Source: Pseudotabrizicola algicola (GTDB lineage Bacteria > Pseudomonadota > Alphaproteobacteria > Rhodobacterales > Rhodobacteraceae). Taken from it: a DNA stretch of 64,000 nt. How positions within the stretch are numbered: the first letter of the stretch is position 1; every line of letters starts with the position of its first letter. Below the pieces are notes generated by a model. That model was not told the origin of the DNA. It saw nothing but the letters and a program-made list of their open reading frames with translations, and ran no database searches. This document shows, one piece after another, positions 19,342 through 50,814 of the stretch. The stretch covers positions 620,001 through 684,000 of the forward strand of contig NZ_JAAIKE010000002.1 in NCBI RefSeq assembly GCF_010915705.1. Direction: 5' to 3'. The position numbers and the translations under genes were made by a program.

Positions 19342-19366
19342 AACCGGGTGCTGTGTCATTTGTTCC
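19342..19366 (-). promoter_or_regulatory. EcfG-type promoter for the DUF892 gene
   Basis: On the minus strand GGAAC (19366-19362) is followed after 17 bases by GTT (19344-19342), 58 bases before the start codon. It is divergent to the next site. Confidence 0.7.
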
Positions 19367-19402
19367 GCAAGAGACGTGACCAAATCTGGTCGCATTTCGG
19401 CG

Positions 19403-19428
19403 GGAACAATCGGCCCAGCGGCACCGTT
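19403..19428 (+). promoter_or_regulatory. EcfG-type promoter for the microprotein pair at 19465
   Basis: GGAAC (19403-19407), 17 bases, then CGTT (19425-19428), about 37 bases upstream of the ATG. This is a near-perfect match to the alphaproteobacterial general-stress consensus. Confidence 0.75.
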
Positions 19429-19464
19429 GAGGGAGGGTCCTCGTACCACGGAAAGGGGAAACCC

Positions 19465-19617
19465 ATGTCTAAACCACACGCCAAACCGCCCGGACAGTCG
19501 GCGAATATTCAGCCGCGCCCTTCTCCGGATCGTTCCGATGCCGGCCCCAAGCGAGAGCAAAAGCAGGCGGGACAGTCCCTTGCCGATCCGCAGGCGGAGA
19601 AGAACGATGCCGAATGA
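19465..19617 (+). CDS. Hydrophilic 50-residue microprotein
   Basis: A small Pro/Gln/Lys/Asp-rich protein (begins MSKPHAKPPGQSANIQPRPS, ends EKNDAE) with no predicted membrane segment or known domain. It is likely disordered. The start ATG at 19465 has GGAAAGGGG upstream and lies directly behind an EcfG-type promoter. Its 3' end overlaps the next small gene by 11 bases in another frame. I do not recognise the family; composition resembles stress-induced disordered proteins. Confidence 0.65.
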   Translation: MSKPHAKPPGQSANIQPRPSPDRSDAGPKREQKQAGQSLADPQAEKNDAE

Positions 19618-19753
19618 GCCGAAACCCGCGCGTGAGAAGCGCCCGCCGTCACCAGATCGCAACAATGATCAGGATGACCACGAAGGGTCAGCGCACAGCC
19701 CCGAAGAGTTCAAGAAGGGGTGGCCTGCGGATACGGGCGATGCCAAGCCCTGA
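19607..19753 (+). CDS. Hydrophilic 48-residue microprotein
   Basis: A small charged protein starting MPNEPKPAREKRPPSPDRNN and ending KKGWPADTGDAKP. The ATG at 19607 has GGAGAAG about 5-10 bases upstream, inside the preceding gene's last codons, which suggests coupled translation. It is rich in Pro, Asp, Glu and Lys with a lone Trp near the end; no domain is recognised. It is probably co-transcribed with the upstream microprotein from the EcfG-type promoter at 19403. Confidence 0.6.
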   Translation: MPNEPKPAREKRPPSPDRNNDQDDHEGSAHSPEEFKKGWPADTGDAKP

Positions 19754-19773
19754 CGATCAGGCCATCGTTGGCA

Positions 19774-19995
19774 TTACAGTCGGGCAACCGCACCGTCCGA
19801 CGCGGCGTCGTCCGAATTCTGCTCGGAAAACTTGGCCTGAAGTTTGAGGGCGAGTTCCATCATTTCGGGTGGAACGGGCTCTGCCCGAATTGCATCAAGA
19901 ACCGCTTCTGCCGTGCCATTCAGCATGTCATCAGGGGTTTGGTTCGCTTTGACATCTGTTTTCACGCCAAGACCCGCCCTCTGTTTCTTAATCAA
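19774..19995 (-). CDS. NepR-like small protein (second copy of the anti-sigma fold?)
   Basis: A 73-residue protein with natural codon use. It has a helix, then AEPVPPEMMELALKLQAKF (about 38-56). The layout helix-(A)xPVP-helix-LQA, with PVP at residues 40-42, matches the NepR protein encoded at 35259 (APVPEHLQRLIDALQARL, PVP at 41-43). NepR proteins bind EcfG sigma factors and are released by PhyR. The start is TTG at 19995 with only a weak ribosome site; an internal GTG at codon 11 is an alternative. It is divergent from a single-domain response regulator. The anti-sigma role is inferred from pattern similarity only. Confidence 0.5.
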   Translation of the reverse strand: MIKKQRAGLGVKTDVKANQTPDDMLNGTAEAVLDAIRAEPVPPEMMELALKLQAKFSEQNSDDAASDGAVARL

Positions 19996-20111
19996 TCGTC
20001 ACTTCATTCAAGATAGTCGAAGTGGGGGCTTCATACAGTCAAAATGCGTGCCAGAGACACAAAAAAACGTGATTCTCTTGTATTTCACCCAGAGAAACCG
20101 TCGAGAAAGCG

Positions 20112-20137
20112 GGAACCGGGCCCTCGAAATGTGCGTT
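20112..20137 (+). promoter_or_regulatory. EcfG-type promoter for the single-domain response regulator
   Basis: GGAAC (20112-20116), 17 bases, CGTT (20134-20137), about 88 bases before the ATG at 20226. It is the same spacing class as the site at 19403. Confidence 0.72.
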
Positions 20138-20225: not shown

Positions 20226-20642
20226 ATGGAGCGCGCCACAACGCAACGGGACGGCACTTGCAACATTCTGGTCATGGAAGACGATTACATCGTGGCTCTT
20301 GACCTGTGCACTTATCTGGAAAGCATCGGCGTCACCGTGATCGGGCCCGCCGGAATGATCAAGGCAGGGCTGGAAATCGCCAGAAGCGCCGAAGCAATTG
20401 ATGGTGCCTTGCTCGATGTCAACATCGCGGGCCAGACGGTGTTCGCAGTTGCCGACGCGCTTATCGAGCGCAAGGTGCCGATCACCTTCGTCACCGCCTA
20501 TGACAGTAGCATGTTGCCCGCCCCATACCGCCACTTTGCTCGCATCGAAAAGCCAATCGAAAGCGCGCAGGTGGCCGAGGCCGTTGAGCGCATGTGCAAA
20601 CAGGCGATGAAATGTCGGCCGCAGCAGATGCTGGCCGACTGA
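20226..20642 (+). CDS. Single-domain response regulator (receiver only)
   Basis: A 138-residue receiver with acidic pocket E18-D19-D20, phospho-acceptor D64 (ALLDVN), T90 (FVTAYD) and K109 (RIEKP). There is no output domain, so it works by protein contact or as a phosphate sink. The sequence around T90-K109 resembles receivers in alphaproteobacterial general-stress pathways. The ATG at 20226 has GGGAGGGGG upstream; earlier in-frame codons have none. An EcfG-type promoter precedes it, so it could form a feedback element. A partner HWE kinase lies 0.8 kb downstream. Confidence 0.88.
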   Translation: MERATTQRDGTCNILVMEDDYIVALDLCTYLESIGVTVIGPAGMIKAGLEIARSAEAIDGALLDVNIAGQTVFAVADALIERKVPITFVTAYDSSMLPAPYRHFARIEKPIESAQVAEAVERMCKQAMKCRPQQMLAD

Positions 20643-20654: not shown

Positions 20655-21227
20655 CTAGTGCAAAAGTCGACGCCCGTGATCTTCGGCCAGCGTGCGCATC
20701 AGACGTTCAAGCCAAGGGCCGACCTGCGTCATCACCGGCAGCGGGTCCGGATCGGCGATGGCGCGGCGAAGGGTCAATTCGACAAGACGATCGGCAGCAC
20801 TTTTGTCTTGCATCAATTCGCGGGCGCGCAGGCGCAATTGCGGGACGAGGTCTGCAATGGTCTGAGGATTGGCAAGACCTGACCGCGCGAGGATCTTGAC
20901 CGTCGTCTGCGGAGCCATCGGCTTGTTGATGCAGACGACTTCGGCAAAGCGCGGGGGCAACAGAGGCTGATCGAACCCGGTGTAAAAGACAAAGGGCACA
21001 CCGTCCTGCAACATCTGGTCAGCCAGAGGAAAAACCATCTGGCCCCGGAGATCGACATCGAGCACGGCCATCTGGCTGGTGGGTGCCAGACGGGTGGCTT
21101 CGGCCAGACTGGCACAGGGACCAATCACTTGTGCATTGGCCGCCCTGAACTCATTCGCCAGTTCGGTCGCAACAAAATAATCATCCTCGGCGATAAGAAC
21201 CCGCCGCCCCTGAAAGTCGAATAGCAT
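20655..21227 (-). CDS. Response regulator with receiver and short helical C-terminal extension
   Basis: A 190-residue protein with receiver residues E14-D15-D16, phospho-acceptor D57 (VLDVDLRG), T83 (FYTGFD) and K102 (INKPM). About 75 mostly helical residues of no recognised output family follow. It is divergent from the large HWE kinase at 21457 and convergent with the single receiver at 20226 (12-base gap), so the three probably form one signalling set. The C-terminal part is neither a DNA-binding domain nor the sigma-like domain of PhyR, which is N-terminal. No EcfG-type site was found on its promoter side. Confidence 0.82.
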   Translation of the reverse strand: MLFDFQGRRVLIAEDDYFVATELANEFRAANAQVIGPCASLAEATRLAPTSQMAVLDVDLRGQMVFPLADQMLQDGVPFVFYTGFDQPLLPPRFAEVVCINKPMAPQTTVKILARSGLANPQTIADLVPQLRLRARELMQDKSAADRLVELTLRRAIADPDPLPVMTQVGPWLERLMRTLAEDHGRRLLH

Positions 21228-21456: not shown

Positions 21457-24400
21457 ATGGTCAGCAAGAATTCACCTTTGCCGGGGCGCGCTGCGCCGCA
21501 GGATCGCTCACGCAAAGAGAAAGTTGTGGCATGGGAAGCCGTGTATGGCCCCCGCAGCTCCTGGCCTGATTGCGTTCGCGCCGCATCTGAACTGGTGCTG
21601 GAGGCAAAGGCTCCGGCGGCGGTGCTTTGGGACGACCCGCCACGATTGATTTCCAATTCGGCCTTTGAAAATCTGCGTGGTGTGAGGACAGAAAGCTTGA
21701 CGCCAGAGCTTCGCATGGCTCTCGAGCCTTCTCTGGTGTCGATCAGACAGGGCCAAAGCGTCCTGCTGCGCCTGCAAGGCAGTGACCCGGCACCTGCGTC
21801 TGATCCGGCGCAAGACTTGGTGATGTCGCCTTTATGGGGCGCAGATGGCGGCGTGGTTGGAGCGCTTGTCACGCAACTGAACCGCGGCGTGGGCGATCCT
21901 GCACCGCCGGTTCTGCAAGACATGGGCGCTTATCGGCGCTTGTTCGAAGTGATCGACCAGGGCTTTTGTCTTGCGGAAGTCCTTTTCACGCCAGAGGGGC
22001 AAGCCTGTGACTACAGGTTTCTGGAAACCAACAGCGCCTTTAGCCAACATACGGGGATGCAGAATGCTGTAGGCAGAACTGCGCTCGAACTTGTGCCGGA
22101 GTTGGAACGGGGCTGGGTCGAGCTTTATGCGAATGTCGTCCTGACGGGTCGCAGCATACGCTTTGAATATCAGGCCGAACCTATCGGTCGGCTTTTTGAT
22201 GTCTTTGCTGCCCGTGTTGGTGGCGACGACAGCCGCATTGTCGGGATCATCTTCCGTGACATAACAGAGCATCGCGCGCGGGAAGCCGAATTGCGTGCAA
22301 GCAATGCTCGCAAGGCCTTTCTTCTGGAACTCTCCGACGCAATCTGCGCACCGGGCGATGCGGCTTGCGTGCAGTGGTCAAGCTTGCGACTTTTGGGCGA
22401 GCATCTGGGCGTGGACCGCGTGGCCTGGCTGGATATGACAGAACCGGATGCCGCTGTGGGGAGGGCTTATTGCGCCGGTGCCGACAGCGTCCAGGATTAC
22501 CAGATCGAAAGCCTCCTCGGCCAAAACATTGGTCACCGGTTTGCCACCGGTCAGATTGAAGTCTGCGCCGACACGCGCACGGGCGGCTTGTCAGCGCAGG
22601 CCGTTGCCACGCTCGAGGCCGTATCGGCACGCGCCTTTGTCGCCGTACCCTACTTGCGCGGCGGCAAACTGATTGGCGGGCTGGTTGTCCATAATAAACA
22701 GCCGCGCAATTGGAGTGCGGCGGAATTGACCCTGATGGCCGAGGCGACAGAACGGATCATGCCGGCGCTGGAACAGGCCCGCGCCGAGAGCGCCTTGCGC
22801 CAAAGCGAGGAAAAATTCCGTCAGCTTGCCGATCTGGCCCCGTCCGTCGTCTGGATGGCCGACGCCGACGGCACGATCAGCTATGTCAGCGAACAATGGC
22901 AGCACTTTGCGGGACAAGATCCTCACGGGCCAAAGACCGGGCCGTCAGCTTTCCTGTTGCACCCCGATGACCGGTCAAAAGCGAAACAGGCATGGGCAGC
23001 GGCGCTGCGCAGCGGAGAGCCATTCGAGATGGAACTGCGCAATCGCCGCAAAGACGGGCAATACCGCTGGTGCCTGACCCGCGCCCGGCCGCAGCACGGC
23101 GCAGAAGGCCGCATCTTGTGCTGGTTCGGAACGACCACCGACATTGACGATCAGAAGCGCACCGAAGAATTCCTGCGACAAAGCGAAGGACGGCAGGCCT
23201 TTCTGCTGTCCTTGGTCGATGCCTTGCGACAATCGGCCCCGCTTCCAGCGCAGAAGGAAGCCTGCCGCCTTGTCGCACAGCATTTGCAAGTGAACCGCGC
23301 TTTCTTTGCAGAACTGGATGAACCCACCGGGAAAGTGCACGTCGCGCAGGATCACTTTGACCCCGCGCTGAACTCGGTCGCGGGAAGCTATCGTGCGGAC
23401 AGCTTCGGCCTGGCAATGACACTGCTGCGCCGGGGAGATCGGTTCGAGGTTTGCGACATGCGCAGCCATTCGGCCATCCCCGCATTTGTGCAGGCCCGTT
23501 TTCTGGCAGGCCAGATCGCCGCTTGCCTCTGCGTGCCGGTCATTCTTGGCGGACAGACGGCGGGGGCGATCTGCGTCACCACCTGCGAGGCGCGGCAATG
23601 GACGGAAGCAGAAGTGGAACTTCTGGCCGAAGCAGGACAGAGAATCTGGGCGGCTGTCGCGCAAACCCGGTCAGAAACCGCCCAGCGCGCCATCGATACA
23701 CGCTTCCGAACCTTGGTCGAGGGTATGCCACAGCTTGTCTGGCGTGCGGCGACCAGTGGCCGCTGGACATGGGCCAGCCCCCAGTGGACCGCTTTCACAA
23801 ACCTCACGAACAGCCAAAGCCAGAATGCGGGATGGTTGGACGCGGTTCATCCGGAGGACAGGGCAGAGGCAGAGGCGGCTTGGGCCCGGGCTCGAGATCT
23901 GGGCAAGTTCAGCGCGGAATACCGGTTGCGCGACCATGCCACGGATACCTATCGCTGGTTTCAGACACGCGCCTTGCCGGTGCGGGACGAGACGGGGCAT
24001 CCGGTAGAATGGCTTGGCACCTCGACCGATGTGCAAGGTCAGCATGACATGCAGGAACGGCTGCGCTCGCTGGTGGCCGAATTGCAGCACAGGACGCGCA
24101 ACCTGATGGCGGTGGTCATGGCGGTGACCGATCGCACCTTGGCTTCCAGCGCCACATTGGAGGATTTTCGCGTGGTCATCCAATCGCGACTCGGCTCGAT
24201 TGCGCGCACCAGCGGGCTGCTCTCCAAGCTGCGAGACGACGGGCAAATCACCTTTGACGAATTGCTTGCCAGCGTCTTCCAGGGGCATGGGATCGCGATA
24301 AAAGAAACCACCGGGCTGCGGGTGTCGGGACCGGCGGGCATAAGGCTGCGTTCCTCTTCGGTTCAGACCTTGGCGCTGGCCCTGCATGAACTCGTGGCAC

Positions 24401-24690
24401 AGAGCATAGCAAGCGGCGGGTTTGCAGGGGCGGGAGGATCGGTTTGCGTGGATTGGCACATGCAACATGTCGCAGAGGGCAAGCGGCGTCTGGTTCTGGC
24501 ATGGCGAGAGACCTTTGCAGAACCCTTGCCCCCGTCCCAGCTTGCCAAAGATCAAAGCAGCATCAGTTTTGGCCGCGAGTTGATTGAACGGGGTCTCTCC
24601 TATCAGCTTAATGCCGACACGTCCTATCGGCTGACCTCAGAAGGCCTCGCTTTTGATCTTTCCTTGCCGCTAACGCAGTATCGCACCTGA
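21457..24690 (+). CDS. PAS/GAF multi-sensor HWE-family histidine kinase with degenerate N-box
   Basis: A 1077-residue protein without clear membrane segments, so probably cytoplasmic. Apparent order: N-terminal region, PAS (about 155-270), GAF (285-435), PAS (447-565), GAF (585-735), PAS (745-855), then the HWE dimerisation/kinase domain. The H-box reads ELQHRTRNLMAVV with the phospho-His at 878. The N-box reads ALHELVAQSIASGG (His 977), where active relatives have HELATNAAKYG. The key Asn is therefore missing, and the GGP after the WRE motif is also absent. It may be a poor or non-catalytic kinase, or act as a sensor/phosphatase. It shares a divergent gap with the response regulator at 20655. 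Confidence 0.88.
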   Translation: MVSKNSPLPGRAAPQDRSRKEKVVAWEAVYGPRSSWPDCVRAASELVLEAKAPAAVLWDDPPRLISNSAFENLRGVRTESLTPELRMALEPSLVSIRQGQSVLLRLQGSDPAPASDPAQDLVMSPLWGADGGVVGALVTQLNRGVGDPAPPVLQDMGAYRRLFEVIDQGFCLAEVLFTPEGQACDYRFLETNSAFSQHTGMQNAVGRTALELVPELERGWVELYANVVLTGRSIRFEYQAEPIGRLFDVFAARVGGDDSRIVGIIFRDITEHRAREAELRASNARKAFLLELSDAICAPGDAACVQWSSLRLLGEHLGVDRVAWLDMTEPDAAVGRAYCAGADSVQDYQIESLLGQNIGHRFATGQIEVCADTRTGGLSAQAVATLEAVSARAFVAVPYLRGGKLIGGLVVHNKQPRNWSAAELTLMAEATERIMPALEQARAESALRQSEEKFRQLADLAPSVVWMADADGTISYVSEQWQHFAGQDPHGPKTGPSAFLLHPDDRSKAKQAWAAALRSGEPFEMELRNRRKDGQYRWCLTRARPQHGAEGRILCWFGTTTDIDDQKRTEEFLRQSEGRQAFLLSLVDALRQSAPLPAQKEACRLVAQHLQVNRAFFAELDEPTGKVHVAQDHFDPALNSVAGSYRADSFGLAMTLLRRGDRFEVCDMRSHSAIPAFVQARFLAGQIAACLCVPVILGGQTAGAICVTTCEARQWTEAEVELLAEAGQRIWAAVAQTRSETAQRAIDTRFRTLVEGMPQLVWRAATSGRWTWASPQWTAFTNLTNSQSQNAGWLDAVHPEDRAEAEAAWARARDLGKFSAEYRLRDHATDTYRWFQTRALPVRDETGHPVEWLGTSTDVQGQHDMQERLRSLVAELQHRTRNLMAVVMAVTDRTLASSATLEDFRVVIQSRLGSIARTSGLLSKLRDDGQITFDELLASVFQGHGIAIKETTGLRVSGPAGIRLRSSSVQTLALALHELVAQSIASGGFAGAGGSVCVDWHMQHVAEGKRRLVLAWRETFAEPLPPSQLAKDQSSISFGRELIERGLSYQLNADTSYRLTSEGLAFDLSLPLTQYRT

Positions 24691-24755: not shown

Positions 24756-25448
24756 TCAGAGGTTCGCGGTTGCCGCGCAGATCGCCTGCATGTTTTCGGG
24801 CGATACATCCATCATGCCCGTGACAGAGCCGCCTGCCGCCGTGGCACCTTCGCCCGTGCCAGTGGAGCCGATCTCTGCCGCGCCCGTGCCAGATGCACCA
24901 CCTTCGGCCGTTCCGGTGGTGGTCGTATCCGCACCGGTGCCGCCCTCGGTCCCTGTGCCGACAGAACCAGCGGCACCCGTGCCCGTGGTGGCGCTGCCCG
25001 CAGCACCTGCATCACCGCTGGTTGTGCCTCCCTCGGCCCCCGTCGTGGCAGAGCCAGTCGCATCGGCACCCGTGGTCGCGCTGCCTGCGCCGGTGGTGCT
25101 GTTTGTTCCCGTGGTGCTGTCTGTGCCGACAGTGCCCGATGCCGCTGCATCGCCCGTGGCCGCACCGCCCATGCTGCCTGCCGAGCCTTGCATGAACACC
25201 ATGCAGTCGCGGCGGATCATCGTCCGGTCTTCTTCCGACAACGTCTGCCATTGCGCTTCGATCTCGCTGGTCGAACGGACCGTGCTGCCATCTTCGCCGA
25301 ACATCGCGGAACCCAGCGAAGTCGACCAGTCAGACCCGAAGGTGCCCGACATTGCCGAAGTCCCGCTGGTGCCGTCGCTGGTCTGTGCCATCGCTACGGT
25401 TGCTGCCAGTTGCGCTGCCATCGTCACTGTAAGAAAGGTCAGTTTCAT
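24756..25448 (-). CDS. Secreted low-complexity protein with two-cysteine core (paralogue of 45811-46344)
   Basis: A 230-residue exported protein. The signal peptide is MKLTFLTVTMAAQLAATVAMAQ. A globular patch follows with EIEAQWQTLSEEDRTMIRRDC (split for length: motif E-I-x-A-x-W-x-x-L-S-x-x-D-x-x-x-I-x-x-x-C). Then comes a ~110-residue Gly/Thr/Ala/Ser-rich linker of GTGAxG-like repeats, and a C-terminal VSPENMQAICAATANL. The start at 25448 is chosen because GGAG lies seven bases upstream; an ATG four codons earlier lacks one. The two Cys could form a disulfide. I do not recognise a named family. A possible EcfG-type promoter is ~195 bases upstream. Confidence 0.75.
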   Translation of the reverse strand: MKLTFLTVTMAAQLAATVAMAQTSDGTSGTSAMSGTFGSDWSTSLGSAMFGEDGSTVRSTSEIEAQWQTLSEEDRTMIRRDCMVFMQGSAGSMGGAATGDAAASGTVGTDSTTGTNSTTGAGSATTGADATGSATTGAEGGTTSGDAGAAGSATTGTGAAGSVGTGTEGGTGADTTTTGTAEGGASGTGAAEIGSTGTGEGATAAGGSVTGMMDVSPENMQAICAATANL

Positions 25449-25641: not shown

Positions 25642-25666
25642 AACTGGCCGCTTGGCCATTTGTTCC
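25642..25666 (-). promoter_or_regulatory. EcfG-type promoter, probably for the secreted protein at 24756
   Basis: Minus-strand GGAAC (25666-25662), 17 bases, GTT (25644-25642). The nearest downstream start is 25448, giving an unusually long ~190-base leader. The 336-base gap 25449-25784 otherwise holds only this site and the terminator below. Confidence 0.55.
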
Positions 25667-25784: not shown

Positions 25785-26618
25785 TTAGGCCTGTGTCTTC
25801 CCTTGGCCCACTGAGCCTTTGGCGCTCGACCCGGAAGAAGACGTCATGTCATCCACCGAACCTGACAGGCTTTGCGATTTCACGCGCAGATTATTCTGCA
25901 CATGGGTCACGCCCGTAATGCGATCGACACAGTCTTCGGCGCGGCGCTTGCTCTGACGCGAGTCCACCTGTCCGGTAAGCGTCACCTCGCCACCAGACAC
26001 GCTGACCTCGATGTCCGAAGCATCGAGCCATGAATCGTCACTCAGATGGTCATTCACATCTTCGCGAATACGGTCATCGGACCGGGTGTAACCCTTGGGG
26101 CCTTTGCCCCGGTGATCGTTGTCGCGCCGACGCTGCGCATCATTGTCGCCAAACCAAGACGATATCTCGTCGCCAGCCTTTTCGAGAAAGCCGCGCTCTT
26201 CCGAATAGCCGCCCTGACGCTGATCGCCATAACCCGAACTTCGGCCTTGGCCGCCATAGCCACCACGGTCATAGGGTCCAAAAGAAGGCTGGCTGTATCC
26301 GTAAGGCCCGCTCGACCTCTGACCATAGCCGTAGCCGCCCTCATCGTGGGAAGACTGCGCGCTCTCGCGGCCGCGATACCCGCTGCCCGATCCTTCGTCC
26401 ATCATCCGGCTTTGGGCGTAGTCATCACCCTGCCGGCCGCCATATCCACCCTGACTGCGGTGGTCAGCCGGGCTGCGGTTGTCATATTCATGCGCCATGC
26501 CGTAGCCGCGGCCATAGCCCGCATCCTGATGTGACTCGCGGTCTCGTGCATATCTGTTTTCGTCTTGGGATGATCTGCCACCCTCGCGGTCAGCCTCAAA
26601 CTGTCTTGATCTAGCCAT
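25785..26618 (-). CDS. BON-domain stress protein with Gly/Tyr-rich low-complexity N-terminus
   Basis: A 277-residue protein. Residues ~1-150 are dominated by Gly, Tyr, Ser, Gln, Arg and Asp (repeats such as GGYGGQGRSSGYG). A SWFGDNDAQRRRD hinge follows, then one BON domain (about 188-252: IREDVNDHL ... VTLTGQVDSRQSKRRAED ... GVTHVQNNLRV), which usually binds lipid or envelope surfaces. No signal peptide is visible. The start at 26618 has GAGGAG nine bases upstream; a longer frame to 26825 lacks one. An EcfG-type promoter lies at 26678-26702. Family members with the SWFGD hinge are common in proteobacterial stress regulons. Confidence 0.88.
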   Translation of the reverse strand: MARSRQFEADREGGRSSQDENRYARDRESHQDAGYGRGYGMAHEYDNRSPADHRSQGGYGGRQGDDYAQSRMMDEGSGSGYRGRESAQSSHDEGGYGYGQRSSGPYGYSQPSFGPYDRGGYGGQGRSSGYGDQRQGGYSEERGFLEKAGDEISSWFGDNDAQRRRDNDHRGKGPKGYTRSDDRIREDVNDHLSDDSWLDASDIEVSVSGGEVTLTGQVDSRQSKRRAEDCVDRITGVTHVQNNLRVKSQSLSGSVDDMTSSSGSSAKGSVGQGKTQA

Positions 26619-26677: not shown

Positions 26678-26702
26678 AACCGGGGGATGAGGTAAATGTT
26701 CC
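26678..26702 (-). promoter_or_regulatory. EcfG-type promoter for the BON protein
   Basis: Minus-strand GGAAC (26702-26698), 17 bases, GTT (26680-26678; GGTT in context), 60 bases before the start at 26618. It is divergent to the next site. Confidence 0.72.
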
Positions 26703-26749: not shown

Positions 26750-26775
26750 GGAACATTGCAGCCGGTTGAGAAGTT
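26750..26775 (+). promoter_or_regulatory. EcfG-type promoter for the small membrane protein at 26813
   Basis: GGAAC (26750-26754), 18 bases, GTT (26773-26775), 37 bases before the ATG. Confidence 0.7.
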
Positions 26776-29480: not shown

Positions 29481-29515
29481 AGGGGACTCCGCTTGGCACA
29501 TTTGTTGTCATAGCC

Positions 29516-29540
29516 AACAGCCAACACGGAAATTTGTTCC
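29516..29540 (-). promoter_or_regulatory. EcfG-type promoter for glucose dehydrogenase
   Basis: Minus-strand GGAAC (29540-29536), 17 bases, GTT (29518-29516), 36 bases before the start at 29480. Confidence 0.7.
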
Positions 29541-31828: not shown

Positions 31829-31853
31829 AACCGCAGAATCCGGCGAATGTTCC
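31829..31853 (-). promoter_or_regulatory. EcfG-type promoter for catalase
   Basis: Minus-strand GGAAC (31853-31849), 17 bases, GTT (31831-31829; GGTT in context), about 110 bases before the ATG at 31718. Confidence 0.68.
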
Positions 31854-31900: not shown

Positions 31901-31925
31901 GGAACAATCACGCGCTTCACAGGTT
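31901..31925 (+). promoter_or_regulatory. EcfG-type promoter for the glycosyltransferase-like gene
   Basis: GGAAC (31901-31905), 17 bases, GTT (31923-31925; GGTT), 48 bases before the ATG at 31974. Confidence 0.7.
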
Positions 31926-37205: not shown

Positions 37206-37218
37206 AGGAGATATCGTC

Positions 37219-38445: not shown

Positions 38446-38470
38446 GGAACAGTTTCCCGATTGGCCGGTT
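38446..38470 (+). promoter_or_regulatory. EcfG-type promoter for the 24-residue membrane peptide and its neighbour
   Basis: GGAAC (38446-38450), 17 bases, GTT (38468-38470; GGTT), 52 bases before the ATG at 38523. Confidence 0.72.
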
Positions 38471-39641: not shown

Positions 39642-39666
39642 GGAACAATTTCCAGCGTCGGCGGTT
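39642..39666 (+). promoter_or_regulatory. EcfG-type promoter for the 72-residue protein
   Basis: GGAAC (39642-39646), 17 bases, GTT (39664-39666; GGTT), 33 bases before the TTG start at 39700. Confidence 0.65.
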
Positions 39667-39990: not shown

Positions 39991-40149
39991 GTTTTCACAT
40001 GTGGGGTCCAGCCTCAGAAAATACAACTTATGGTTGTTTTTTGAAGATACATTGCAACTAGAAAATAGTTTGGTATTGTTGAAGCATCCAACGCCAGATG
40101 GGGATTTGCAAACTCCACATTCTTGCCACTCCAGTCTTTACCAAATCAT

Positions 40150-43608: not shown

Positions 43609-44021
43609 CACAAATGCTCCTTTGCAAGCCGGATATCCCGGCTGGTTTGTTGAAGGGTGCGGTCCGGCATGAGTTCGGCCGCAGAAAGGGATGTGCGCCC
43701 ACGCGCGATCAGCAATGCACCGATGATGCCCAGGGCCGCGCCAACGATGACCGAGGCCCAACCCGGCCCCACCCACTCTGCCAAGGCGATGACGAGGGCC
43801 TGAACCAGAACGAGGGCAGCGACCAAAAGAAAAATCGCCCCTGCAACCATCATTTCGGCTCCGGCAGCCATCGATTTTAGGCCTTGCGAAAGTTCAGTCC
43901 GGATCAGCCTGCCTTCGCCGCGCACGATTCCGGTCACGTCGCGGATGAGATCAGCCAATAACCCCGCGATGCCGCCGGGGCCCGACTCTGTCTGCGGGGA
44001 AAGTGGATCGCGCTCAATCAT
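43608..44021 (-). CDS. Phage-holin superfamily (Actinobacterial holin-like, DUF1469) membrane protein
   Basis: A 137-residue protein. GIAGLLADLIRDVTGIVRGEG forms an amphipathic start, and two transmembrane helices lie at about 52-75 (MMVAGAIFLLVAALVLVQAL) and 80-103. The tail is basic. Chromosomal members in stress operons are not phage genes; their role is unknown. The start is ATG 44021, overlapping the upstream stop by eight bases; a frame open to 44087 would overlap too far. Confidence 0.84.
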   Translation of the reverse strand: MIERDPLSPQTESGPGGIAGLLADLIRDVTGIVRGEGRLIRTELSQGLKSMAAGAEMMVAGAIFLLVAALVLVQALVIALAEWVGPGWASVIVGAALGIIGALLIARGRTSLSAAELMPDRTLQQTSRDIRLAKEHL

Positions 44022-44736
44022 GGCTGCCCGTCCCCGCCCCACCCGGGCGCGTGGCGCCGAGGGGGCCAGACGAGCCACTGACGACACCCGGATTTGATTG
44101 CGACCTGCCGCCTTCGGGGGCGCTCACCATCGGGTCGTTCAGCATCTCTTGTGTGCGCTGTGGCGTGGCGAGCGTCACTCGGCTGCCGCCCTGCGGATGC
44201 CCCGACCGCCCACCATGCGACATCTCGCTTTGCGAATTGCCGCGCGCACCGGAGCGCTGGCCGGCGTTCGATTTGCCACGCGTTGACGAGGTATCGGTCG
44301 CCACGATCATGCGCCCCGCCAAAGCGCCCGTGACAAGGCAGCCCATCACGAAAAGCGCAGGGTTCTCGCGCCCGAACTGGCCAAGACGCTGCCCCATCTC
44401 GCGAATGGATTGTCCCTCGAGGCGTGACGACATATCGTCTATCAAATCAGCGGCATGAGCGGCCATTGCCGAGGCTGCCTCATCCTCTGCGCCCGCCGTC
44501 TCTCCACGCAGCCGCCCTGCGACCGCGCGTATTTGCGACCCCATGTCGGCGGCCCTGCGGTCCAGTTCATCAAGCACAAGCGCCGATATCGTGGAGCCAG
44601 CGTTTTGCGCCTCGTGTTTCACGCGGTCCGCGGCCTGAGAAAGGCGCGCTTTGGCATCGTCAAGCTCGCGTTGGGCAGCTTTTGCCATATCCGAGGTGTC
44701 GTCTTGCGAATGGGTGTCTCTGTTTTCGCTGTGCAT
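44014..44736 (-). CDS. Nutrient-deprivation-induced (NDI)-like membrane protein
   Basis: A 240-residue protein. The long helical first part (about 15-115) is rich in Ala/Glu/Arg (AQRELDDAKARLSQAADRV). One transmembrane segment at about 125-145 (RENPALFVMGCLVTGALAGR) resembles rhizobial nutrient-deprivation-induced proteins. The Ser/Gly-rich tail is disordered. The ATG at 44736 has AAGGAGG nine bases upstream. It is first gene of the operon with the holin-like and DUF3618 genes, behind an EcfG-type promoter. Confidence 0.78.
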   Translation of the reverse strand: MHSENRDTHSQDDTSDMAKAAQRELDDAKARLSQAADRVKHEAQNAGSTISALVLDELDRRAADMGSQIRAVAGRLRGETAGAEDEAASAMAAHAADLIDDMSSRLEGQSIREMGQRLGQFGRENPALFVMGCLVTGALAGRMIVATDTSSTRGKSNAGQRSGARGNSQSEMSHGGRSGHPQGGSRVTLATPQRTQEMLNDPMVSAPEGGRSQSNPGVVSGSSGPLGATRPGGAGTGSHD

Positions 44737-44786: not shown

Positions 44787-44811
44787 AACTGGAGGCTGGT
44801 CACTTTGTTCC
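44787..44811 (-). promoter_or_regulatory. EcfG-type promoter for the NDI-holin-DUF3618 operon
   Basis: Minus-strand GGAAC (44811-44807), 17 bases, GTT (44789-44787), 51 bases before the ATG at 44736. Confidence 0.72.
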
Positions 44812-44841: not shown

Positions 44842-44866
44842 GGAACAATGGCGCGACGGAGCGGTT
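44842..44866 (+). promoter_or_regulatory. EcfG-type promoter for the SDR oxidoreductase
   Basis: GGAAC (44842-44846), 17 bases, GTT (44864-44866; GGTT), 56 bases before the ATG at 44923. It is divergent to the previous site. Confidence 0.72.
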
Positions 44867-44922: not shown

Positions 44923-45771
44923 ATGAGCAAAGATATTCCCGCCCAAGAGCAAGACCACCAGCCCGGAACCGAAGCCGAGATGGAACCGAAGCCGGAGTTC
45001 ATGCCCGTCTACGCCGGATCGGGGAGACTGAAGGACAAGGTTGCCGTGATCACAGGGGGCGACAGCGGCATCGGCCGCGCTGCGGCGGTTCTTTTCGCGC
45101 GTGAAGGGGCGAATGTGGCGATCCTTTACAAGGACGAACATGGCGATGCGGACACCACGATCGACATGATCGATGCCGAAGGCGGCGAAGGGATGAAGAT
45201 CGCACTGGATATCGGCGACAAGCAGGCTGTCGAGGCTGCAATCCAGCAGGTGATTGACCGTTTTGGTCGTATCAACATTCTGGTGAACAATGCCGCCGAG
45301 CAGCACGTTCAGGATAATGTCGAGGACATCAGCGAAGATCAGCTTTTGCGCACATTCAAAACCAATATCTTTGGTCAGTTCTTCGCGGTGCAGGCTGTGC
45401 TGGGCCAGATGGAACAGGGCGACAGCATCATCAACATCACGTCGGTGACCGCGTTTCGGGGGCAGGACCAACTGGTTGACTACTCGTCCACCAAAGGGGC
45501 AATTCTGGCCTTTACCCGCGCCCTGTCATCCAAACTCGCCGAACGCGGCATCAGGGTGAACGCCGTCGCACCCGGGCCGATCTGGACACCGCTCATCCCG
45601 GCATCCTTTCCGGCAGATAAGGTGGAAAGCTTTGGCCAGAACGTGCCGCTCGGTCGTCCCGGCCAGCCGAACGAGGTGGCGCCCTGCATCCTGTTTCTTG
45701 CCTGTCAGGACAGCTCTTACATCACAGGGCAGACATTGCATCCGAACGGGGGCGAACTGATCGGAGGCTAA
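44923..45771 (+). CDS. SDR-family oxidoreductase (YghA/general-stress type)
   Basis: A 282-residue classical short-chain dehydrogenase with an N-terminal extension (about 1-38) typical of the YghA/GspA-like stress subgroup. Cofactor motif GGDSGIGRA, NNAAEQ, catalytic Ser in ITSVTAFRG and YSSTK active site are all intact. The C-terminus GQTLHPNGGELIGG is normal. The substrate is unknown; relatives reduce aldehydes or ketones. It has its own EcfG-type promoter and is divergent from the NDI operon. A perfect terminator follows. Confidence 0.9.
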   Translation: MSKDIPAQEQDHQPGTEAEMEPKPEFMPVYAGSGRLKDKVAVITGGDSGIGRAAAVLFAREGANVAILYKDEHGDADTTIDMIDAEGGEGMKIALDIGDKQAVEAAIQQVIDRFGRINILVNNAAEQHVQDNVEDISEDQLLRTFKTNIFGQFFAVQAVLGQMEQGDSIINITSVTAFRGQDQLVDYSSTKGAILAFTRALSSKLAERGIRVNAVAPGPIWTPLIPASFPADKVESFGQNVPLGRPGQPNEVAPCILFLACQDSSYITGQTLHPNGGELIGG

Positions 45772-46386: not shown

Positions 46387-46412
46387 AACACCTCAAAGAG
46401 GAGATATGTTCC
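46387..46412 (-). promoter_or_regulatory. EcfG-type promoter for the secreted two-cysteine protein
   Basis: Minus-strand GGAAC (46412-46408), 18 bases, GTT (46389-46387), 43 bases before the ATG at 46344. Confidence 0.65.
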
Positions 46413-46537: not shown

Positions 46538-47956
46538 ATGACAGCGACCCACAGGCCCCCCTGCCTTGTCGAACCCGACATCTTGAGCCTCTGCGTGGAA
46601 GGCAAGAGCGCCACTTCCGGCCCGCCGCCTCCCCGCCTTTTCTATCTGAGCGGCTTTGAAGGCACCCAGATGTTCGGACATGGGATAGATGTTCTGGACA
46701 CATCCCAACACACCGGACGCTACGCCGCCGATCTTTTGCAACTGGTTACCGACGGGATAACCGAGTTTCGGTGCTGTATCCCGTGGCACAAGATTGAGAG
46801 GGTGCGCGGCAGTTATGACTGGAGTTGGACCGACCGCTATCTAGATCAGGTCAGACGCCTTGGCCTGCGGCCCATAGTGGACCCGCTGCACCATACCAGT
46901 TTTCCGCACTGGCTGGAAAACGGCTTTGCCAACCCCGATTTTCCTCACCGTTATGTCGCCTTCCTGACCAGTTTTGCCCGCCGTTATCCCTGGGTGTCAG
47001 ACTACACCATCATCAATGAGCCGGTTGCGACATCAATTCTTTGCGGCTTTACCGGCGACTGGTATCCGCATTGGACAGGCCGTGGCGGCGTGGCGCAGAT
47101 GATCCTCGGGATGGTGCGCGCCATCCACGCGGCCAGCATCGCCCTTGAGAATCTTGTGCCGGCATTGCGCATTGTGCATGTCGATACCTGCGAGCGGCAT
47201 CATGCGCTGGATGAGGCTGCAAAGGACCATACGGAATTCAGCAATCATCTGCGGTTCGCGGTGCTTGACCTCTTGCTCGGCAGGGTCGCTGCTGACCACC
47301 CCTTGTTCGAGTTGTTTTCGCGTAATGGCTTGCGAGAAGACGAACTTGCACTTTATCGCGCGCTTCCCTCGCGGATCGACGTTCTGGGACTGGATTACTA
47401 TGCCCATAGCGAAATGGGCTGGACGCGCAAAGGACCTAGCGAAGCCTTTCGACCGTTTGGCTTTCGCAAGCTGGCGAAGGAATATGCCGCGCGTTATCCG
47501 TTCAACCTCATGCTGTCGGAAACCAATGTCCGCGGGCGGATCGAAGATCGACTGACATGGCTTAGATACATGGTGTCGGAGTGTGAGCAGTTGACTCTCG
47601 AGCTGATGGCCCAAGGTCGTCAGTTCGAAGGCTTTTGTTGGTATCCGCATATTGATTCCACGGATTGGTGCTCGCTCTGCCGTGAGCCGAACGGGCGGAT
47701 CGATCCGCAAGGGATATACCATCTGACCGGTCAGTTTGACCGCATGCCCTCGGAACTGTCCGAGACCTATGTTCAGTTGGCCGCGGGGAAAATAGAGGCC
47801 TCACAGATACCCGCATATCGTTTGGAAAATCCGGTTCTGACAGACCGCAGGGTCGGCAAGTTCCTGTGCCACATGGCCGGATTTGAGTGGCGCGAAGGCC
47901 AGCCCAGCGGCGCACCTTATGCGTGTCAGTCCCCTCTTACCCTTGCCGATATCTAG
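46538..47956 (+). CDS. Family-1-like glycoside hydrolase
   Basis: A 472-residue TIM-barrel protein. The acid/base site is DYTIINEPVATS (Glu 161) as in GH1 TxNEP enzymes, and the nucleophile is probably the Glu of LMLSETNVRG (Glu 328), where classic beta-glucosidases have TENG. Length is normal for GH1. No signal peptide is seen. The ATG at 46538 precedes a variable ~30-residue leader; an internal start near FYLSGFEG is possible. It is the first gene of a glycan set with a glycosyltransferase and UDP-galactopyranose mutase. Upstream, GGAAC at 46453 lacks a proper -10 element. Confidence 0.8.
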   Translation: MTATHRPPCLVEPDILSLCVEGKSATSGPPPPRLFYLSGFEGTQMFGHGIDVLDTSQHTGRYAADLLQLVTDGITEFRCCIPWHKIERVRGSYDWSWTDRYLDQVRRLGLRPIVDPLHHTSFPHWLENGFANPDFPHRYVAFLTSFARRYPWVSDYTIINEPVATSILCGFTGDWYPHWTGRGGVAQMILGMVRAIHAASIALENLVPALRIVHVDTCERHHALDEAAKDHTEFSNHLRFAVLDLLLGRVAADHPLFELFSRNGLREDELALYRALPSRIDVLGLDYYAHSEMGWTRKGPSEAFRPFGFRKLAKEYAARYPFNLMLSETNVRGRIEDRLTWLRYMVSECEQLTLELMAQGRQFEGFCWYPHIDSTDWCSLCREPNGRIDPQGIYHLTGQFDRMPSELSETYVQLAAGKIEASQIPAYRLENPVLTDRRVGKFLCHMAGFEWREGQPSGAPYACQSPLTLADI

Positions 47957-47980
47957 GGCTGGCAAGGCCGCGGGGGCGCA

Positions 47981-48005
47981 GGAACAAAAGTTTCATCCAC
48001 TGGTT
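47981..48005 (+). promoter_or_regulatory. EcfG-type promoter for the glycosyltransferase-glf pair
   Basis: GGAAC (47981-47985), 17 bases, GTT (48003-48005; GGTT), 35 bases before the ATG at 48041. Confidence 0.7.
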
Positions 48006-48040
48006 GAGCAGCCAAGACCCTCATTCAATCGGATGCCCCA

Positions 48041-49228
48041 ATGAATTCCCCATTTTCGCTATCACCGGCGGGACAAGACCTCGTGCCCCAAAAGCAGCCT
48101 GCCCTGCGCCCGAATGCGCGGGCGCGGCAAACCATCGTCTGCTTTTCCCATTTGCGGTGGGGTTTCGTGCATCAGCGCCCGCAGCATTTGCTCAACCATG
48201 CTGCGGCGTCCTATCTGGTGTATTTTGTCGAAGAACCCGTGGCGGGTGAGGGGCCATCGCATTTCCGGATGCAGGTCGCAGAGTCGGGCGTGATCGTCCT
48301 GACACCCTACATCGACCCCGCAGCCCATCAGATTGAGGAACAGCACAAGCTGGTGCAAGACCTGCACCGCAGCATCGCGGGCGATCTTGTGGTCCATTGG
48401 TTCTATACGCCGATGGCATTGCAATTCGTGCAGGATATTCCTTGCGACCTTTGCATTTACGACTGCATGGACGAGCTGTCGGCCTTCCGCTTTGCCCCCG
48501 CCGGTCTGCGCGATTTGGAGCGTGATTTGCTGGGGCGGGCAGATCTTGTCTTTACGGGGGGGCGCAGCCTGTTCGAAGCCAAGCGTGCCCACCATCTGGA
48601 TGTGCATTGTTTTCCGAGCAGCGTGGATGTCAGCCATTTCGGTCGTGCGCGCACTGCAATCCCCGATCCGGCGGATCAGGCGCACCTGCCCGGCCCCCGC
48701 ATCGGATTTGTGGGGGTGATCGATGAACGGATCGACCTTGATCTGATCGCGCAAGCGGCGTCTGAACTGCCGGAGCTGCAATTTGTCATGCTCGGGCCAA
48801 CTGCCAAGATCGATCCGGCCAGCCTGCCGCACGCAAAGAACATTCACTGGCTGGGCAGCAAATCCTACGCCGAATTGCCTGCCTATATGGCAAATTGGCA
48901 AGCGGCGTGGATGCCCTTCGCTCTCAATGATGCGACCCGCTTTATCAGCCCGACCAAGACACCGGAATTCTTGTCTGCCGGATTGCAGGTTGTGTCGACA
49001 GCGGTGCCGGATGTGGTCGCGGAATACGGGCAGAAGCGTTTGGTCAAGATCGCAGAGGCATCAAGCATTGCGGCAGATCTGCGCGCCAGCCTGACGTCAC
49101 CCACCCCGGATTGGAAAAGAGCCGTCGACCGATCGTTGCGGCAAATGTCATGGGGCCGGACATGGAACGCGATGCAGGGGCTGATGGCTTCCCGCATGAC
49201 GATGCCAAAGGAATTGGCCCATGCATGA
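48041..49228 (+). CDS. GT-B fold glycosyltransferase (TuaH-like)
   Basis: A 395-residue protein. The N-terminal Rossmann half includes VCFSHLRWGFVHQRPQHLL, a motif common in TuaH-like transferases, and LCIYDCMDELSAF. The C-terminal half is GPRIGFVGVIDERIDLDLI then PLHA-type donor site ISPTKTPEFLSAGLQVV. The stop overlaps the glf start by eight bases, so the two act together. Donor and acceptor are unknown, but coupling with Glf suggests a galactofuranose-containing surface glycan. Its own EcfG-type promoter makes this pair stress-inducible. Confidence 0.85.
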   Translation: MNSPFSLSPAGQDLVPQKQPALRPNARARQTIVCFSHLRWGFVHQRPQHLLNHAAASYLVYFVEEPVAGEGPSHFRMQVAESGVIVLTPYIDPAAHQIEEQHKLVQDLHRSIAGDLVVHWFYTPMALQFVQDIPCDLCIYDCMDELSAFRFAPAGLRDLERDLLGRADLVFTGGRSLFEAKRAHHLDVHCFPSSVDVSHFGRARTAIPDPADQAHLPGPRIGFVGVIDERIDLDLIAQAASELPELQFVMLGPTAKIDPASLPHAKNIHWLGSKSYAELPAYMANWQAAWMPFALNDATRFISPTKTPEFLSAGLQVVSTAVPDVVAEYGQKRLVKIAEASSIAADLRASLTSPTPDWKRAVDRSLRQMSWGRTWNAMQGLMASRMTMPKELAHA

Positions 49229-50345
49229 CTGGCTGATCGTAGGGGCGGGTTTTGCTGGGAGCGTTCTGGCCGAGCGTTTGGCGACCCAGCGCAATGAAAC
49301 GGTGCTGGTCATCGACAAGCGCGATCATATCGGCGGCAATGCCTATGATTACCATGACGCGGCAGGCGTCCTGGTACACCGCTATGGCCCGCATATCTTC
49401 CATACCAATGCAGCGGTCGTCGTCGAATATCTGTCCCGGTTCACAGATTGGCGCCCCTATGAACATCGCGTTCTGGCGCAAGTGGACGGGCAGTTGGTGC
49501 CAATTCCGATCAATCTCGATACAGTCAATCGGCTTTACGGGTTGGACCTTGATCCACAGGGGATGGAAGCCTTTCTGGCCGAGCGGCGCGAACCCGTCGA
49601 AGAGATCAAAACATCGGAAGATGTGGTGGTGTCGACGGTCGGCCGAGATCTCTATGAGAAGTTCTTTCAGGGCTATACGCGCAAACAATGGGGGCTTGAC
49701 CCGTCCCAGCTGTCGCGCATCGTGACCGCGCGAATTCCCACACGGACAAACCGGGATGACCGCTATTTTACCGATCAGTTCCAGCAGATGCCCTCCGACG
49801 GCTATAGCGCCATGTTCCGCCGGATGCTCGACCACCCCAATATCCACGTGGAGCTTGGCACGACCTGGAATGAAACGCGTGACAGACCAAAGGCGCGGCG
49901 GCTCATTTTCACAGGGCCGATCGATGAATATTTCGGGCATTGCTATGGGCATTTGCCTTATCGCTCGCTCCGCTTTGAACACGAGACGCGCGATCTGGAA
50001 TGGGCGCAGCCTGTCGGGGTGATAAACTTTCCCCAGACAGAAGATTACACGCGGGTCACTGAATACAAACACCTGACAGGCCAGACGCACCCCAAAACCA
50101 GCCTGACTTACGAATACCCGAGTCCCACGGGTGATCCCTATTACCCCATTCCGCGCGAAGAGAACCAAGAGCTTTACCGCAAGTATCGCACGGCAGCGTC
50201 ACGGCTGGACGATGTCTGGTTTCTTGGGCGGTTGGGAACCTACCAATATCTGAACATGGATCAGGTGGTGGGTCAGGCGCTGGCAACCTTCGATCGCATC
50301 AACGCCACCCGCACCCCGACAGCGGCGGCGCGCGCAGCCGAGTGA
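49221..50345 (+). CDS. glf: UDP-galactopyranose mutase
   Basis: A 374-residue FAD flavoenzyme that converts UDP-galactopyranose to UDP-galactofuranose. The N-terminus MHDWLIVGAGFAGSVLAERL holds the dinucleotide motif. DKRDHIGGNAYDY and RYGPHIFHTN are the invariant Glf blocks, and the C-terminal FLGRLGTYQYLNMDQV completes it. Length is normal (370-390). It is co-translated with the upstream glycosyltransferase. A long hairpin follows the stop. Confidence 0.96.
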   Translation: MHDWLIVGAGFAGSVLAERLATQRNETVLVIDKRDHIGGNAYDYHDAAGVLVHRYGPHIFHTNAAVVVEYLSRFTDWRPYEHRVLAQVDGQLVPIPINLDTVNRLYGLDLDPQGMEAFLAERREPVEEIKTSEDVVVSTVGRDLYEKFFQGYTRKQWGLDPSQLSRIVTARIPTRTNRDDRYFTDQFQQMPSDGYSAMFRRMLDHPNIHVELGTTWNETRDRPKARRLIFTGPIDEYFGHCYGHLPYRSLRFEHETRDLEWAQPVGVINFPQTEDYTRVTEYKHLTGQTHPKTSLTYEYPSPTGDPYYPIPREENQELYRKYRTAASRLDDVWFLGRLGTYQYLNMDQVVGQALATFDRINATRTPTAAARAAE

Positions 50346-50350
50346 GGCTG

Positions 50351-50384
50351 TTCCGGCACCGGAGGTGAGCCCCCGGTGCCGGAA
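50351..50384. terminator. Convergent terminator after glf
   Basis: Perfect twelve-bp stem TTCCGGCACCGG (50351-50362) / CCGGTGCCGGAA (50373-50384) between convergent stops. Confidence 0.85.
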
Positions 50385-50398
50385 ACGCATCGCGCCGA

Positions 50399-50695
50399 TC
50401 AATCGTAATGTTCTGGCAGCGCGCGCAACTGGTCTTTCGACCATGTGGTAAGGCCATGAACACGGCCCGCTGTATCGCGCATAAGATCAAGGTCATCCAG
50501 ATTGATCAGAACGGGCTTGGCGCCGATGCCAAGGAAACCGCCAACGTCAATCACCACCTTGGGCGCGACACCGACATCATGCAGATGCGAAATGGTGCCG
50601 ACCTTCTCGTCGTTCTGGTCATAGATCGGCGCACCAGTCAGGTTTTCTTCGGTCTGTTCGGCCAGCGTCAGTCGAATGTGGCTGCTATGGTCCAT
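50399..50695 (-). CDS. PRC-barrel domain protein
   Basis: A 98-residue protein with one PRC-barrel (about 18-80: LTGAPIYDQNDEKVGTISHL, then PKVVIDVGGFLGIGAKPVLI). PRC-barrels occur in RimM, photosynthetic reaction centres and many stress proteins. ATG 50695 is chosen because AAGGAG ends six bases upstream; an ATG at 50701 would touch the ribosome site. Its EcfG-type promoter (50745-50769) is divergent to the next gene's. Confidence 0.88.
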   Translation of the reverse strand: MDHSSHIRLTLAEQTEENLTGAPIYDQNDEKVGTISHLHDVGVAPKVVIDVGGFLGIGAKPVLINLDDLDLMRDTAGRVHGLTTWSKDQLRALPEHYD

Positions 50696-50744
50696 CGTCA
50701 TCTCCTTTTTCATCACGGCCAGAGCCGTTCTGACCAGCCAAGGA

Positions 50745-50769
50745 AACTGGCGTGCATAAACTATGTTCC
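50745..50769 (-). promoter_or_regulatory. EcfG-type promoter for the PRC-barrel gene
   Basis: Minus-strand GGAAC (50769-50765), 17 bases, GTT (50747-50745), 50 bases before the ATG at 50695. Confidence 0.72.
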
Positions 50770-50789
50770 TGCGCCAGACCTGCCGCGGC

Positions 50790-50814
50790 GGAACAAAAGG
50801 CGGCATGCCCTGTT
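50790..50814 (+). promoter_or_regulatory. EcfG-type promoter for the 76-residue membrane protein
   Basis: GGAAC (50790-50794), 17 bases, GTT (50812-50814), 28 bases before the ATG at 50842. Confidence 0.72.

Follow-up and report, generated by a model that had tools for sequence, protein, structure and literature searches.

A 64-kb window of the Pseudotabrizicola algicola genome (bases 620001–684000 of contig C12) raises the question of which regulator reads a dense cluster of promoter-like sequences. At about 18.8–51.1 kb of the window, in what we call the island, pairs of the form GGAAC-N17/18-GTT surround ecfG2, which encodes a sigma factor of the EcfG type at 34674, and the adjoining gene for a NepR-like protein. 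The original prediction had taken this region for a general-stress locus with consensus promoters. The sigma factor and its NepR-like neighbour do lie in a dense cluster of EcfG-like promoters; the observation was right and the interpretation half right, and the region is most likely an accessory second-EcfG module rather than the general-stress locus. The sites cluster, they fall into two promoter classes, and the classes go with two kinds of EcfG locus. From these sequence comparisons we interpret the island as an accessory general-stress module run by EcfG2, with a promoter preference shifted from that of the canonical factor EcfG1 (probability about 0.72).

The 19 sites reported by the original prediction are exact in every coordinate, strand and spacing (N17 in 14, N18 in 5). 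All are intergenic and aimed at the next gene, and the GTT lies 28–110 bases from the start codon except at 25642 (193 bases) and 29516 (14 bases, or 35 with the codon-model start; gene calls are those of a codon model, with some starts altered by eye). Positions 18787–51072 (32.3 kb) hold 22 matches, namely the 19, a further gap site at 33089 and two within genes, where 1.36 would be expected from the rest of the genome (Poisson P = 2e-19; 210 matches in all, in 4.49 Mb on 29 contigs). The density is thus far above that elsewhere in the genome-wide scan that had been proposed as a check, and the chance expectation of about 0.2 sites was also about right (4.1 kb of intergenic DNA gives about 0.25 by arithmetic). 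The same pattern read backwards occurs 7 times in the island and 339 times genome-wide, and eight control stretches (160 kb together) hold 7 sites; these counts reject chance or base composition as the source of the 19 sites. The pattern scan gave the following promoters, in which EcfG2 class means A after GGAAC and an ending other than CGTT.

19342–19366, reverse strand: EcfG2-class promoter, DUF892 gene
19403–19428, forward strand: mixed promoter (A after GGAAC but CGTT), 50-residue open reading frame (ORF)
20112–20137, forward strand: EcfG1-class promoter (GGAACC...GCGTT), response regulator gene
25642–25666, reverse strand: EcfG2-class promoter, 193 bases from a 230-residue gene
26678–26702, reverse strand: EcfG2-class promoter, BON gene
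26750–26775, forward strand: EcfG2-class promoter, 58-residue ORF
29516–29540, reverse strand: EcfG2-class promoter, pyrroloquinoline quinone (PQQ) dehydrogenase
31829–31853, reverse strand: EcfG2-class promoter, catalase
31901–31925, forward strand: EcfG2-class promoter, 368-residue gene
34607–34632, forward strand: ecfG2 promoter, neither class (GGAACT...AGTT)
35720–35744, forward strand: EcfG2-class promoter, DUF378 gene
38446–38470, forward strand: EcfG2-class promoter, 24-residue ORF then 316-residue gene
39642–39666, forward strand: EcfG2-class promoter, 72-residue ORF
44787–44811, reverse strand: EcfG2-class promoter, 240-residue, holin-like and DUF3618 genes
44842–44866, forward strand: EcfG2-class promoter, short-chain dehydrogenase
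46387–46412, reverse strand: EcfG2-class promoter (N18), 177-residue gene
47981–48005, forward strand: EcfG2-class promoter, glycosyltransferase and mutase genes
50745–50769, reverse strand: EcfG2-class promoter, PRC-barrel gene
50790–50814, forward strand: EcfG2-class promoter, 69-residue gene

The twentieth gap site (33089–33113, GGAACC...CCGTT) precedes a deaminase gene, with 7 bases between it and the called start, and could be an EcfG1-class promoter if translation begins at a later ATG.

These are not the consensus promoters that had been claimed: 17 of the 19 do not follow the established GGAAC-N16/17-CGTT, and the canonical phyR/nepR/ecfG locus lies on another contig, C1. A follows GGAAC in 17 of the 19, and the textbook CGTT ends only two; the site at 20112 belongs to the other class, and the promoter of ecfG2 at 34607 to neither.

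The sigma factor at 34674 matches Sigma70_r2, Sigma70_r4_2 and PhyR_sigma2 above their cut-offs, and its nearest solved chain is 5uxx, a Bartonella sigma factor solved with NepR. It is 41% identical to the EcfG1 of the same genome. A canonical EcfG shares its locus with phyR and nepR; at ecfG2 we found only the NepR-like gene. A search with the PhyR sigma2 domain placed phyR, nepR and ecfG1 on contig C1, with phyR divergent from nepR-ecfG1 and a sensor-like gene alongside (by eye), and found no PhyR in the island.

The canonical locus has a site cluster of its own, at roughly half the density (7 sites over 20 kb), and therefore clustering alone is not unique to the island. What differs is the promoter. 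All seven canonical sites end in CGTT and six begin GGAACC, so that CGTT is found at 7/7 sites there versus 2/19 in the island (Fisher P = 5e-5). We compared the neighbourhoods of 18 EcfG1 and 30 EcfG2 loci, taking up to 12 kb on each side of the sigma factor gene, N17/18 spacings only, and leaving out the promoter of ecfG2 itself; two rows were dropped before counting: L026, which comes from the G018 genome, and G285, whose two loci are less than 10 kb apart. The base before GTT was C at 80/119 sites of EcfG1 loci versus 26/186 sites of EcfG2 loci (odds ratio 12.6, P = 1e-21), and A followed GGAAC at 9/119 versus 122/186 (P = 7e-26). Among sites standing before a start codon with a ribosome-binding motif, C was found at 52 of 74 versus 17 of 118 and A at 3 of 74 versus 85 of 118, and the N17 consensus was GGAACC...GCGTT for EcfG1 and GGAACAWW...CGGTT for EcfG2, where A or T sometimes replaces the G before GTT. 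These differences speak against a single uniform promoter class. Spacer positions 9–19 were alike in the two sets, and unpaired GGAAC or GTT words in the same DNA carried no such bias.

The distinction holds within genomes. In ten genomes with both loci, the fraction of sites with A was higher at EcfG2 in all ten, and the CGTT fraction was higher at EcfG1 in nine. Three plasmid loci (Martelella, Paracoccus AK26 and Rhizobium ACO-34A), fetched after the promoter classes had been fixed, gave CGTT at 5/36 sites, A at 19/36 and GGAACC...CGTT at 0/36, their ecfG2 promoters excluded. EcfG2 occurs in 16 of 295 family genomes (hits above 140 bits, minus G004, whose locus L106 was rejected as EcfG2 and counted as EcfG1 since it is linked to phyR). 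Across whole genomes, GGAACAWN14/15GGTT was found 151 times versus 31 for the backwards control in these 16, and 1,818 versus 1,316 in the 279 others (Mann–Whitney P = 3e-6). DUF892 genes are present in 15 of the 16, compared with 10 of 40 chosen genomes lacking EcfG2 (P = 2e-6). At DUF892 genes the site closest to the gene had A and not CGTT in 12/19 cases in EcfG2 genomes versus 0/10 in genomes lacking EcfG2 (P = 0.001; denominators are loci with a site, among 27 and 13 loci examined).

Outside the island, this genome has small clusters of GGAACA-type promoters at L006:2565 and 6745 (contig C13) and L007:8949, 12099 and 12740 (contig C26), upstream of two DUF892 genes and of manganese-catalase-like, superoxide dismutase-like and DUF2934-like genes (by eye). 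By their promoters, these are likely to be more of the EcfG2 regulon.

Several points weigh against an EcfG2-run module with a promoter class of its own. One of the ten genomes, G051, is an exception for CGTT (EcfG2 4/7, EcfG1 3/6), and L034, which stands beside EcfG1 in our tree, was kept among the EcfG2 loci though its 10 sites are without A, which weakens the result. Related genomes are not independent of one another, nor are sites that share a genome. The DUF892 genes and genome-wide counts include island sites, several DUF892 loci share one genome, and at least 5 of the 10 DUF892 genes in genomes lacking EcfG2 are of a different-looking subtype (by eye). In this genome the EcfG1-class pattern is no more frequent than its backwards control (34 versus 51). 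Our own NepR profile matched near 5/32 EcfG2 loci; this genome and G135 are members of that profile, and the match in G285 belongs to the nearby EcfG1 locus. In passages on Sinorhizobium meliloti, overexpression of RpoE5 had one target (PMC6180224), and passages on Rhizobium etli describe EcfG2 as also driving the phyR and ReC64 promoters (PMC3892343), so that EcfG2 specificity would be at most a preference. The katG gene of R. etli depends on EcfG2 according to the same passages (PMC3892343); we rejected it as direct proof, finding no GGAAC-N17/18-GTT in the 170 bases up to its start.

The alternative that survives best, though we think it unlikely, is one shared regulon in which both sigma factors read all GGAAC...GTT promoters, the base differences tune strength and EcfG2 merely amplifies. 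Paralogues in Sphingopyxis granuli and Methylobacterium extorquens have common targets or promoters (passages of PMC7083833 and PMC4814048), which again counts against distinct specificities; changes in the -10 element alter strength with both S. granuli factors (passages of PMC7083833), and the use of the phyR and ReC64 promoters by R. etli EcfG2 points the same way. Against sharing, the promoter class tracks the sigma factor locus in the same genomes (A in 10/10), in the DUF892 family and in the three later loci. In passages of the R. etli study, moreover, each EcfG prefers its own promoter in Escherichia coli, and the units that depend on EcfG2 mostly lack the EcfG1 motif CGTT, which is found in 1 of the 19 units down in the ecfG2 mutant (PMC3892343).

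It is far less probable that the promoters follow the genes, with accessory stress genes carrying A-rich, GGTT-type promoters irrespective of EcfG2, for example as recently acquired DNA. EcfG2 loci do look accessory and their gene content varies, but a composition effect is at odds with the likeness of the spacers and the neutral unpaired words, and DUF892 genes without EcfG2 lack the class (0/10, with the subtype caveat given above). Marginally less probable still is a different extracytoplasmic function (ECF) sigma factor reading the island promoters: further ECF factors exist, for example at C23:29862, and the consensus of S. meliloti RpoE6 (ECF26) is, in passages on that factor, somewhat similar to that of ECF15, but across genomes the class goes together with EcfG2, and it gathers at EcfG2 loci on different replicons.

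In the mechanism proposed for the EcfG2 module, the EcfG2 holoenzyme would read the second promoter class directly, NepR2, the NepR-like protein, would hold EcfG2 in check, and a receiver–sigma2 protein encoded in the island (REC-sigma2), together with kinases of the HWE family, could release it. EcfG1 would switch on ecfG2 in many relatives, because the ecfG2 promoter is usually EcfG1-like: it has CGTT in 13/19 loci with a site, versus 26/186 neighbouring sites (P = 8e-7), and A after GGAAC in 4/19. In Martelella and ACO-34A the ecfG2 promoter reads GGAACC...CGTT, in Paracoccus AK26 it reads GGAACA...GGTT, and a close relative (L025) has GGAACG...CGTT at the position of the window's ecfG2 promoter. 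Passages on S. meliloti describe rpoE5 as a direct RpoE2 target (PMC6180224). The promoters thus suggest a relay from PhyR through EcfG1 and EcfG2 to the island, though one whose EcfG1-to-ecfG2 step is weakest in this very genome, because ecfG2 here has a promoter of neither class and the case for the relay comes from relatives; the window's EcfG1-class site instead precedes the response regulator gene (20112). The relay is further opposed by the 6/19 loci whose ecfG2 promoter is without CGTT, by 11/30 loci with no N17/18 site within 260 bases upstream of ecfG2, and by R. etli, in which passages report that ecfG2 is autoregulated and only partly EcfG1-dependent and that EcfG1 gave no direct stimulation of ecfG2 in E. 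coli (PMC3892343).

The genes in and beside the island are as follows.

18787–19284, reverse strand: DUF892 ferritin-like stress protein (Pfam DUF892, 1.7e-60)
20226–20642, forward strand: single-domain response regulator, PhyR-receiver-like (Response_reg below cut-off; best NCBIfam model PhyR-family, below cut-off)
20655–21227, reverse strand: REC-sigma2, receiver then sigma2-like domain, 190 residues (PhyR_sigma2 27.5 bits, cut-off 27)
21457–24690, forward strand: PAS/GAF HWE-family sensor histidine kinase (Pfam HWE_HK, PAS_3, GAF)
24756–25448, reverse strand: repeat-rich protein, 230 residues, probably exported by eye (ORF; Pfam gave no match)
25785–26618, reverse strand: BON-domain protein (Pfam BON)
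27051–29501, reverse strand: PQQ-dependent dehydrogenase (Pfam PQQ)
29613–31718, reverse strand: large-subunit catalase (Pfam Catalase, Catalase_C)
31974–33080, forward strand: 368-residue protein (ORF; Pfam gave no match)
34674–35186, forward strand: ecfG2, non-canonical EcfG (ECF15-type) sigma factor, 170 residues (Pfam, identity, tree)
35259–35459, forward strand: nepR2, NepR-like anti-sigma factor, 66 residues (Pfam NepR 27.6 bits, cut-off 25.7)
35773–36015, forward strand: DUF378 small protein (Pfam DUF378)
36146–38391, forward strand: 133-residue protein (no Pfam match), SRPBCC-type protein, zinc alcohol dehydrogenase (Polyketide_cyc, ADH_N)
40123–42660, forward strand: second HWE-family sensor histidine kinase (Pfam HWE_HK, PAS_3; start uncertain, 40252 by codon model)
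42670–44736, reverse strand: DUF3618-like (just below cut-off), holin-superfamily and 240-residue (no match) genes (Pfam)
44923–45771, forward strand: short-chain dehydrogenase (Pfam adh_short_C2)
46538–50345, forward strand: glycoside hydrolase family 1-like (below cut-off), glycosyltransferase and UDP-galactopyranose mutase genes (Pfam/NCBIfam)
50399–50695, reverse strand: PRC-barrel protein (Pfam PRC)

Outside the island, positions 9758–18680 of the window encode a 1,385-residue protein and then type I secretion system-like genes (by eye).

REC-sigma2 resembles a PhyR turned round and halved. PhyR has a sigma2–sigma4-like part before a C-terminal receiver; the 190-residue REC-sigma2 departs from that order, with the receiver first, then a sigma2 match of about 75 residues, and sigma4 absent. 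Pfam PhyR_sigma2 matched at E ≤ 0.1 in 7/7 members scanned, the window's included, and hhalign aligned the domain with the sigma2 region of EcfG2 (97.4%, 33% identity over 61 columns). In that alignment REC-sigma2 does not keep the PGT-containing loop of EcfG2, which we take to contact the -10 element. The modelled sigma2-like domain had a mean predicted local distance difference test score of 78, and its Foldseek matches were ECF sigma2 and PhyR sigma-like domains (template modelling score 0.53–0.76, E 0.16 and up). A search with the whole model, set aside as a guide to fold, put receiver-plus-helical proteins such as Rv1626 and EutV first; the C-terminal domain alone gave ECF sigma2 and PhyR sigma-like folds.

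Full-length REC-sigma2 is present in 5/295 family genomes (E ≤ 1e-25), four of them among the 16 with EcfG2. Its gene is a neighbour of ecfG2, adjacent or at most about 14 kb away, in the window, G018, G272 (one of two copies), L027, Paracoccus AK26, Paracoccus MA, Martelella, Roseivivax and ACO-34A, linkage having been looked at in named cases only, out of 29 plasmid records covering 80% of the protein. Three cases depart from this: the G051 copy stands far from ecfG2 and about 11 kb from the canonical ecfG1, the copy in G217 is accompanied by no EcfG2 on the genome count, and in Tistrella separate replicons carry the two genes. From its domains we infer that REC-sigma2 may act as an anti-anti-sigma factor for EcfG2. 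In Rhizobium ACO-34A it is annotated as two adjoining ORFs (L187:28335–28924) and may be broken.

A more far-reaching version of the module, possible but doubtful, would make it a self-contained second stress response insulated at every level, with kinases of its own, with REC-sigma2 releasing EcfG2 from NepR2, and with a promoter code to which EcfG1 responds poorly. A single link to the general response would then be left, namely an EcfG1-type promoter in front of ecfG2 or of the response regulator gene, and the module would move between Alphaproteobacteria on plasmids together with its target genes.

A 51-row tree placed all 19 EcfG1 rows in one group (support 100/97) without any EcfG2; the EcfG2 rows did not form one rooted clade, with L034 placed beside EcfG1 (88/86). 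Compared with this genome, a same-genus genome has an EcfG1 that is 94% identical and a PhyR that is 95% identical, and an EcfG2 that is 53% identical; these values point to fast evolution or exchange of EcfG2. Among named EcfG2 proteins, the nearest one found (87%) is from a Pseudotabrizicola metagenome-assembled genome. EcfG2-like genes (about 48–55% identity) are carried on plasmids of Paracoccus, Rhizobium, Sinorhizobium, Mesorhizobium, Martelella and others, and the plasmid with the related locus in Rhizobium sp. ACO-34A is typed conjugative by PLSDB. The patchy distribution and plasmid-borne relatives fit a transferable accessory module. The original prediction of a transferable island is to that extent borne out, as it is by the low within-genus identity; transfer of the window's own copy is not. 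Both RepC matches in the genome are on contigs C10 and C14, with none on the window's contig, and there are no tRNA genes in the 64-kb window.

Of 34 island proteins tested, DUF892 recurred in 12/30 EcfG2 loci versus 0/18 EcfG1 loci and short-chain dehydrogenases in 18/30 versus 2/18, in a comparison that covered up to 40 kb per EcfG2 locus and up to 20 kb per EcfG1 locus. On this evidence, the islands share a habit more than a set of genes. Two sigma factor sequences stand apart. The same-genus genome G135 has, about 14 kb from ecfG2, a fragment (L086:5931–6101) 54% identical to EcfG2 residues 25–81, possibly a decayed second copy; and in this genome the ECF factor at C23:29862 (L008:9832) has a PhyR_sigma2 match and is followed by an anti-sigma-like gene (by eye).

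The nearest known systems are EcfG2 of R. etli and RpoE5 of S. meliloti, which match the window's EcfG2 (44% and 48% identity) better than this genome's EcfG1. Both are on accessory replicons, one on a plasmid and the other on pSymB; from position and similarity we infer that RHE_RS26680 on p42f is the published R. etli EcfG2 and that the pSymB match is RpoE5. The R. etli gene also adjoins a DUF892-type gene, and its product differs from EcfG1 in promoter preference (passages of PMC3892343). It departs from the window in that the only putative NepR of R. etli is chromosomal (passages of PMC8103513), whereas nepR2 stands beside ecfG2 here. For neither EcfG2 of R. etli nor RpoE5 did a promoter motif emerge. 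The 51-row tree gives no placement of this pair (L116/L120) relative to the Rhodobacterales EcfG2 group. With canonical PhyR-NepR-EcfG (ECF15) systems the island shares the sigma fold, a NepR-like partner, the GGAAC -35 element and HWE kinases; it differs in having no PhyR and a -10 element that is mostly not CGTT. Caulobacter SigT/SigU and Sphingopyxis EcfG2/EcfG1 resemble the proposed relay in that one EcfG drives the gene of the other (passages of PMC8103513), but there the second factor shares or amplifies the targets of the first, whereas target promoters in the window differ by class. Bacillus subtilis SigM, SigV, SigW and SigX have overlapping regulons separated partly by spacer features (passages of PMC7083833); the factors and elements are unrelated, and no island is involved.

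The authors of the R. etli study found no motif for EcfG2, in passages of PMC3892343, and passages of a review leave the non-canonical EcfG promoter pattern undetermined (PMC8103513). For M. extorquens factors, passages report C/GGTT (PMC4814048); GGTT as a -10 variant is therefore known, and its tie to one kind of EcfG appears new in the papers searched. In titles, abstracts and passages of open-licence papers we found no report of the two-position promoter difference or of an inverted half-PhyR.

The shifted promoter address suggests a way for two sister regulators to control separate sets of genes, and the inverted half-PhyR is a possible missing input for the second system. A candidate pattern at two sharply defined positions would make it possible to tell EcfG1 targets from EcfG2 targets where a genome has both factors.

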